This document shows, piece by piece, positions 32,150 to 34,024 of a DNA stretch of 64,000 bases; position 1 is the first letter of the stretch; each line of letters opens with the position of its first letter. A program made the translations under genes and the position numbers. The notes under the pieces were generated by a model. That model did not search any database. It had not been told where the DNA came from and saw only the letters and a list, made by a program, of their open reading frames with translations. The stretch lies in contig PXUA01000015.1 in the NCBI GenBank assembly GCA_003022435.1, positions 62,001 through 126,000 of the forward strand, in the 5' to 3' direction. Source of the DNA: Bacteroidetes bacterium SW_9_63_38 (lineage in GTDB: Bacteria; Bacteroidota; Rhodothermia; Rhodothermales; Salinibacteraceae).

Positions 32150-33455
32150 CTATTCAGAAACGGAGTCCATCTGGGCCTTCTGGAGGGTGCCGGAGTAGTC
32201 GATGTAGCAGGTTTTACGCTCGGCGAAAAATTCGTAGGCGGCCCATCCGCCGTCCCGGTGCCCGTTGCCGGTGGCCTTGACGCCGCCGAACGGCATGTGC
32301 GCTTCCGCGCCGATGGTGGGGCCGTTGACGTAGGCGATTCCCGTGTCTAGTGCAGCTTCAAACGATCTTTTGGGGAAAGCAGTTTGCTATTGCTCCAAGC
32401 TCCAGCTTGAGGTATGGACGGACGAGGTCCGTCCAAAGCTCGATTGCACAACGGACCAGTTGAAGCTGCACTAGGTCGCGTAAGGCCCGCTGGCTAATGT
32501 TGGCATCGGTGGTGTAGATGGCCGATGAGAGGCCGAATCGAGTGTCGCTGGCCACGGTCACCGACTCGTCGTACGAGGCGACCTTGAAAACCAGGAGTAC
32601 TGGCCCGAAGATTCCGTCCTGCGCGATCCGCATGTCTGTCGAGACATCTGTGAAAAGCGTGGGCTCGAAGAAGTAGCCGTCGAGCCCATCCGGGGCGGCG
32701 GCCTGTCCCCCGAACTGGAGGAGAGCCCCCTCGTCCACCCCGAGGTCAACGTACTCCTGAACTCTTCTTCGGGCGGCTGCATTAATGAGCGGGCCGATGT
32801 CCGTGCCGTCTTCCGTGCCGTCTCCCAGACAGAGGGCACCGGCCTCCGTCTCGATCCGCGACACGAGTGCATTGTGCACGCCCTCGTGACAGATGAGTCG
32901 GCTCGTGGCTGTGCAACGTTGTCCGGTGGCGCCGCAGGCGCCCCAGATCGCGCCCTCCAGGGCAAGATCCAAGTCGGCGTCGCCGAGTACGATCATGGGG
33001 TTTTTGCCGCCCATCTCCAGCGAGACGCGTTTGTCGCGCCGCCCACAGGTCTCGGCGATGGAGATGCCGACCTCGTAGGAACCCGTGAAGCCGACGGCGT
33101 CGATCCCCGGATGCTTGACCAACGCCGTGCCGGTGGCTTCCTGGACATCGCCCTTTGTCTCGAAGACGGGTTTGTCCATCTCACGGGTCATGGCTCGAGC
33201 AATGTCGGGTTTTCGTTCGGCAAGAAGGTCGCCCGCTGTGCGGAGGATGCGGCCTCGTTGTGGCGCGGGGTACCGGTCCCAGGCATCGAGGGCGGTGGTG
33301 GCCGCGTCTACCACGGCGTCGACATCCGGCGGATCGGAGGACGGCACGGTTCCGATCGTGTCGCGAGGCCGGGCCGGGTTGGTTGTCTGAAAGGTCTGGC
33401 CGGAGGCAGCCGACCGCCACTCGCCGTTGATGTAATTCTGAGGTTGATTCGGCAT
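32150..33455 (-). pseudogene. Aldehyde dehydrogenase gene with internal deletion and MITE insertion
   Basis: The start (MPNQPQNYINGEWRSAASGQ) and the catalytic core are those of an NAD(P)-dependent aldehyde dehydrogenase: [20 protein letters not shown] carries the general-base Glu and [13 protein letters not shown] the nucleophile Cys. Two lesions are visible. First, about 85-95 residues that normally lie between GDVQEA and TGTALVKHPG are missing in frame (junction near 33136), removing the TPxNFP and KP(A/S) cofactor-binding segments. Second, a 120-bp element interrupts the codons for RALRDL at 32347-32474. Beyond it the reading continues [20 protein letters not shown] and ends QMDSVSE at 32150. 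Either lesion alone should abolish activity. Confidence 0.92.
32347..32474 (-). mobile_element. MITE, family 1, copy 1, inserted in the aldehyde dehydrogenase gene
   Basis: A 120-bp element (32351-32470) with 12-base terminal inverted repeats (GTGCAGCTTCAA ... TTGAAGCTGCAC) is flanked by CTAG on both sides. The CTAG is a real target duplication: deleting the element and one CTAG rejoins the host codons as CGC GAC CTA GAC ACG, giving [15 protein letters not shown]. Four-base YTAR duplications are typical of IS5-group transposases, so an IS5-type enzyme elsewhere in the genome probably moves it. Internally it has a perfect hairpin GGACGGAC-GAG-GTCCGTCC. It encodes nothing itself. Confidence 0.93.
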
Positions 33456-34024
33456 GATTGGGCACTGCTTTTCTTTAAAGGGCCCGTAAGGGTCTCTAAT
33501 TTAAGCCCTATGCATAGCAATCCCTAAGAAGATCTCGCCGTGCGGCGCCCGAGACCCTGGCTCCCGCACCGGGGGGGCTGTAGTCCGAACGCAATGTGTA
33601 TAATGAAATGCCACCGCCACTTTGAACTGCGAAGCCACCCGTCCCGGGGTCGCTAGGGGTGCGGGGCCCTCCACGGTCTCTCTGGACGGACTCTTCGAAT
33701 GCATAACGAACCAAGTGCATCCATCAGTGTACGTGTTGCTAGTAGCACATGTAGCCGTGGGGGGAAGGGGCGGTGAATTGAGTGTTGCTGCGAGTGGTCA
33801 ATGGTGGAAATCGTTCCCTTTAATCAATGGTGCGTCCCGATCCTGAACCCCTAGTGCAGCTTCGAACGATCTTTTGGGGAAAGCAGTTTGCTATTGCTCC
33901 AGGCTCCAGCTTGAGGTATGGACGGAAGAGGTCCGTCCAAAGCTCGATTGCACAACGGACCAGTTGAAGCTGCACTAGGACCCCGATAGTTCTCCATCCA
34001 GAAGATCACGATTGCACCGAGTCG
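33456..34024. other. 569-bp intergenic region between aldehyde dehydrogenase pseudogene and aminotransferase
   Basis: Besides the second MITE copy (33851-33978) I see no gene here. The left part holds a TATAAT hexamer on the plus strand near 33601, without a convincing -35. The region lies between divergent genes, so it should include the aminotransferase promoter, probably partly displaced by the MITE, which ends 46 bases before the start codon. Confidence 0.5.
33851..33978 (-). mobile_element. MITE, family 1, copy 2, upstream of the aminotransferase gene
   Basis: This copy has the same length (120 bp core at 33855-33974, plus CTAG on both sides) and the same orientation as copy 1, and differs from it at only three positions that I can count. 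One lies in the left inverted repeat (GTGCAGCTTCGA) and one in the internal hairpin. The near identity shows that both insertions are recent relative to genome divergence. It ends 46 bases upstream of the aminotransferase ATG and may influence its expression. Confidence 0.93.

Follow-up and report, generated by a model that had tools for sequence, protein, structure and literature searches.

A new high-copy MITE family with CTAG-type target duplications in a genome of the Salinibacteraceae

The window analysed here, a 64,000-nucleotide stretch of contig PXUA01000015.1 of Bacteroidetes bacterium SW_9_63_38 (Salinibacteraceae), carries an aldehyde dehydrogenase gene on the minus strand (positions 32160 to 33455, 3' limit approximate), delimited by PF00171 and by comparison with relatives, and two short inserts, the first of which lies inside this gene. 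Copy 1 occupies positions 32351 to 32470 on the plus strand, with inverted ends at 32351-32361 and 32460-32470, and is bordered by the tetranucleotide CTAG at 32347-32350 on the left and at 32471-32474 on the right. Copy 2 occupies positions 33855 to 33974, also on the plus strand, between CTAG at 33851-33854 and CTAG at 33975-33978; the flanking tetranucleotides, read directly from the sequence, are given without a strand. Within copy 1, an internal segment of 23 bp (32416-32438, plus strand) holds the hairpin GGACGGAC-GAG-GTCCGTCC, as defined by an alignment of 61 copies, by comparison of consensus forms and by folding. A sequence-only reading of this DNA had described paired inserts at 32347-32474 and 33851-33978 with the same length, orientation and CTAG flanks and about three differences, and closer comparison agreed: the two 120-bp cores mismatch at core positions 10, 48 and 73 and lie within a 129-nt direct repeat of 98% identity. 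One of the three differences falls in the left inverted end of copy 2, which reads TGCAGCTTCGA. The proposed inverted ends were real, but their length of 12 bases was one too many, as the perfect repeat spans 11 bp (TGCAGCTTCAA) and the G taken as the first base is part of the duplication.

The source genome (G000; 2.84 Mb in 19 contigs, 83.76% complete) was searched for relatives of these inserts. With the 128-bp copy as query, at least 40 matches reached E<=0.001 among the best 40 of 86 candidates scored, and the 21-nt right end gave 70 matches with up to three mismatches on 18 of the 19 contigs, compared with 0 for a reversed-pattern control. The long direct repeat, the same-genome matches and the difference from this control together show that the pair is not a chance resemblance, and the further copies on which the sequence-only reading had staked its interpretation are abundant. 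Some right-end matches are fragments (e.g. L070:4562-4593 and L094:2015-2046), and five full-query matches lack the right end (C2:1-98, C14:66858, C14:100369, C15:22891 and C15:225926), which brings the known copies, full or partial, to about 75.

Sixty-one copies with both ends were recovered from fetched stretches, with cores of 96-141 bp; this set leaves out 12 longer end pairings, the majority of them between ends of separate copies or ends arising by chance. Two lengths dominate, 120 bp (31 copies) and 97 bp (25 copies), followed by 116 bp (two copies) and 96, 98 and 141 bp (one each). Both dominant consensus forms have the same perfect inverted ends, and the shorter equals the longer minus precisely the 23-bp hairpin segment, while the 141-bp form contains a 21-bp tandem duplication. 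Copies of the 97-bp form differ from their consensus at a mean of 1.68 positions and those of the 120-bp form at 2.13, with five of the latter identical to the consensus and one outlier at 13 differences. These small distances suggest that the family spread recently in the source genome. The elements are short, encode no transposase, have inverted ends and target duplications, and occur as dispersed near-identical copies, which bears out their earlier identification as miniature inverted-repeat transposable elements (MITEs).

Some members depart from this uniformity. A strongly diverged 120-bp copy (L092:2053-2172, contig C5) has a CTGG duplication and a longer perfect hairpin, and has some bases in common with the single copy found in another genome (G007, below). 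Ends at L072:2014-2040, L070:4561 and L077:67 adjoin a common sequence, AGATTTCC or its complement, and some of them may sit inside another dispersed repeat.

The insertion sites define the boundary of the element. The 4 bp on either side are identical in 45 of the 61 two-ended copies, as CTAG in 29 and as another tetranucleotide in 16 (CCAG in four, CTAA in four, CTGG in three, TTAG in two, TTAA in two and ATAG in one). The remaining 16 have unequal flanks, differing by one base in ten copies, by two or more in five (the third copy of L056, L087, L089, L091 and L040), and running into N in one. Because the non-CTAG flanks also match, the 4 bp are the duplicated target and the core starts with TGCAG, confirming the 4-base duplication that had been proposed. 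The earlier argument, that exact removal of copy 1 proves the boundaries, held for the restored reading frame and failed as a proof of the boundary, since CTAG is a palindrome that prolongs the inverted repeat and one such site cannot fix where the element ends. A duplication of TA only was ruled out by the matched outer bases. The family thus duplicates a 4-bp CTAG-like target, most often CTAG and also CTAA/TTAG, CCAG/CTGG, TTAA and ATAG, and the preference for CTAG relative to CTAA, TTAA and CCAG can be read from a single genome. CTAG itself is rare in the window: it occurs 30 times, MITE sites included, where base composition predicts 224 occurrences and a trinucleotide model 59.

We compared empty sites, built by joining the flanks of eight of the 61 copies (hand-picked, most of them for their coding context, with both window copies among them), with 13 genomes of the genus, namely the source genome and 12 relatives. 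The aldehyde dehydrogenase site is uninterrupted, with 0 gaps, in all 12 relatives, in agreement with the claim that copy 1 disrupts this gene and that its exact removal restores the frame and the protein reading proposed for the junction. It had also been expected that intact orthologues would read through CTA GAC at this point; uninterrupted sites were found, but not that sequence, as the relatives carry CCAG, CGAG, CAAG or CAAT and none of the 12 has CTAG. In our own reading of the alignments, a leucine codon followed by aspartate or glutamate is kept in 11 of the 12. At an osmC-like site (L006), 10 of 12 relatives span the junction, four without gaps and six with two gap positions away from it. 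The match listing shows alignments across an MMPL site (L069) in five relatives (G005, G006, G007, G011 and G012), and an aconitase site (L075) is spanned in four (G005, G006, G007 and G010), two of them with a 20-base gap, the size of a tandem duplication that adjoins the copy. Listed matches for L050 end at or before the junction, save for a 37-base match in G010 that crosses it, and no junction-spanning alignment was found in the 12 relatives for L055, window copy 2 or L049.

Two of these genes show further changes. Upstream of the insert, the aldehyde dehydrogenase matches PF00171 (Aldedh) in two stretches separated by a jump in the profile. Its residues through 111 and those starting at 106-109 align about 100 residues apart in all 12 relatives. 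This loss of about 100 internal residues (window 32478-33455, minus strand) is independent of the MITE, so the gene is either damaged twice or lost a segment in assembly. The aconitase gene is interrupted by a 116-bp variant with a TTAA duplication (L075:1911-2075, contig C5), and the adjoining 20-bp tandem duplication, which shifts the frame, is possibly an assembly effect.

Such details bear on whether draft misassembly could have spread or duplicated the repeats. Copies do lie at contig edges (C2, C11 and C13), runs of N occur beside or near copies in four of 51 scanned stretches (L078, L086, L094 and L103), and the tandem duplication at the aconitase copy would fit. Misassembly would not, however, create matched duplications in 45 of 61 copies with seven different tetramers (five with strands merged), and the window contains zero N; we consider this explanation very improbable. 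Annotators of this lineage should note that broken genes and contig ends may be effects of MITEs.

That the repeats are immobile structural or regulatory elements, such as REP-like sequences or RNA elements, is barely credible. Their single-strand fold is strong (-58 kcal/mol, z -5.49 on the plus strand; -57.3 kcal/mol, z -6.94 on the minus strand), and one copy (L050) adjoins the stop codon of a gene. Against this, the matched duplications are varied, relatives have gap-free empty sites, and where orthologous loci could be compared, position was the opposite of conserved. The hairpin was rejected as a terminator, as no promoter- or terminator-like site was found, and identity with a known RNA was rejected because Rfam gave no match up to E 0.1. 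A preference for insertion at stop codons was likewise discarded: the duplication terminates a long reading frame in nine of 61 copies, without clear enrichment over control CTAG sites (window, 8 of 26; fetched stretches, 6 of 69).

Transposition in trans would account for these observations. A cut-and-paste DDE transposase is expected to recognise the MITE ends and to make a staggered 4-bp cut at CTAG. Judging from the many sites that the 97-bp form occupies, mobility does not require the hairpin, a dispensability that near-identical copies, natural length variants and empty sites in relatives make readable from one genome. The most likely source of the enzyme would be an IS5-family transposase (DUF4096 plus DDE_Tnp_1), a source favoured because CTAG-flanked elements of that kind occur in the source genome and in the genus. 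The autonomous element itself would be either absent from, or unassembled in, the 84% complete genome.

One of the two PF01609 matches in the source genome is such an IS5-family element (L097:8547-9453, contig C8), whose ends read GTCGTACTGAC and are flanked by CTAG on either side. Its two reading frames and a run of A suggest that it uses programmed frameshifting. A MITE copy lies about 160 bp from this element, and the TAG of that copy's left flank serves as stop codon for the gene upstream. Matches to DUF4096 (PF13340) were present in nine of 13 genus genomes, and we examined 30 loci of the 32 matches listed. CTAG on both sides together with inverted ends was seen at L136, L138, L139 (the source genome's own element), L144 and L145, and L134 is flanked by one CTAG and one CTAA. 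CTAG has been described as typical for an IS5-group element (PMC9241763).

Where IS5-type ends could be resolved (six of the 30 loci), they read GCACTGTYTGA or GTCGTACTGACAA, unlike TGCAGCTTCAA, which is the end of none of the six. The sequence-only reading had suggested IS5-type mobilisation and a look for an IS5-family element with the MITE ends; CTAG-flanked elements of this type do exist in the genus, but none whose ends were resolved carries those of the MITE. More broadly, no transposase with MITE ends was seen among the PF01609, PF13340, PF13546 or rve loci or in inverted-end searches. A search with the 14-mer end in the 13 genus genomes, largely drafts, gave 30 loci, and of the 19 outside the source genome, all of which were examined, none has a transposase with these ends. 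Scanning the fetched stretches of the source genome for ends outside MITE matches gave five at up to one mismatch, none with a transposase; one of them (L072) adjoins CTAG, and no neighbouring transposase was recognised there. Further solitary ends may lie in parts of the source genome beyond these stretches. The contig carrying the G007 copy likewise has no transposase with MITE ends. The MITE has the 4-bp CTAG/YTAR-type duplication of an IS5-type element but not ends that match any of the IS5-family ends resolved in the genus, and the assignment rests on target preference and on the enzymes present, not on common ends.

Two CTAG-inserted IS5-type elements in relatives, L145:1398-1411 (G006) and L142:84-97 (G004), lie directly after TGAAGCAGCA or TGACGCTGCA, each of which is one mismatch from the MITE right end over the 10 bases before CTAG. 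In 11 other element flanks of the 13, at least five of ten bases differ from that end. The L142 flank is known on one side, and the element reaches the contig end; the sequence upstream of L145 showed no recognisable MITE remnant. Such flanks might link the IS5-type enzyme to MITE-like ends.

The MITE core starts with TG and ends with CA. Ends of this form are found more typically in rve-type families (IS3/IS481) than in IS5, which calls for caution in the IS5 assignment and would suit an rve-type enzyme. The mover could be a transposase outside IS5 that uses CTAG-like targets of 4 bp, of the IS701 type or an rve-type IS481/IS3-like enzyme, which we regard as possible but unlikely. Almost all IS701 elements are reported to have duplications of exactly 4 bp (PMC2266710), and one IS481-family element combines NCTAGN duplications with ends that start with TG (PMC2516522). 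The corresponding 6-bp duplication is not seen here, as the base before CTAG is common to both flanks in three of the 45 copies with equal duplications. Both kinds of transposase are also scarce in the genus. PF13546 (DDE_5), which we take to be IS701-linked, has matches in two of 13 genomes, neither of them G000 or G007, and the two loci show single ends at two mismatches, with no pair around the gene. Matches to rve occur in six of 13 genomes, with one sub-cut-off fragment containing a stop in G000 and none in G007, and TGCAGCTTCA at up to one mismatch was found at none of 12 rve loci. G007 has six DUF4096 matches and none to DDE_5 or rve. It is plausible that an IS5-family transposase mobilises the family, and to the best explanation as a whole, in which the two inserts are copies of a gene-free, non-autonomous DNA transposon (MITE) moved by such an enzyme, we assign a probability of about 0.7.

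Outside the source genome the family is nearly absent from the genomes searched. Among 27 genomes of the taxonomic family, including the source, matches occurred in the source genome and in one of the 26 others (G007), which has a single CTAG-flanked copy with 77% identity. Genes for a MobA/VirD2-type relaxase and a ParA-type ATPase lie on the 30.6-kb contig that carries it, which is therefore probably a plasmid. As the G007 copy retains the hairpin, the 97-bp form probably arose by deletion. No exact match was found with two patterns in a collection of genome contigs or with three patterns in a collection of viral contigs, searches that would miss copies as diverged as the one in G007, and blastn found none in plasmids and phages; records very near the source genome may be left out of the database searches. 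Single TGCAGCTTCAAGCAATC-type ends lie near GTCATCTTGAGCGGAGCG-like repeats at L110:418 and L122:686 (G008) and at L111:1511 (G009), and are perhaps remnants of a related element. One could also imagine that a plasmid-borne ancestor entered the lineage and that a CTAG-targeting transposase with TG...CA ends, matched by no element found in the genus and belonging to an undescribed group now lost or rare, raised its number within one species from a few copies to 70 or more, a scenario we consider improbable.

We found no paper on this family in the open-access literature searched under Salinibacter, and in papers naming Salinibacter together with MITE terms, as far as the retrieved text goes, MITEs appear only in reference lists. 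Within the scope of that search, this is a real and new MITE family. Published copy numbers range from 1-22 for one family up to the 711 ERIC copies of a single genome, according to a 2024 review (PMC10969869), and by that range 70 copies is high without being exceptional. The IS5-family (DUF4096-type) elements of the genus, such as L097:8547-9453, resemble the MITE in having CTAG on both sides and differ in encoding a transposase and in their ends. Haloquadratum walsbyi, also a hypersaline host, has transposase-free mobile repeats, some without a functional partner transposase; these MITEs are archaeal, number five families and 55 copies per strain, and are likened to ours by description only (PMC3119063). 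MITEPsy1 of Pseudomonas syringae pv. phaseolicola is the closest published element that we found: a 100-nt element annotated as 'IS5?' with a 4-nt duplication of CTAG or YTAA, trapped while transposing (PMC3189936). Like the present family it is non-coding, has inverted ends and a CTAG/YTAA-type duplication, inserts into genes and has a proposed IS5-type assignment. Its ends, in contrast, are 18 nt long (GGAAGGTCTGAAAAAGCC on one side), strain 1448A has six copies compared with the 70 right ends here, and ISPsy2 has been named as its likely partner and its transposition trapped experimentally (PMC3189936). The family described here is new, well delimited and high in copy number, and the kind of element to which it belongs is already well known.
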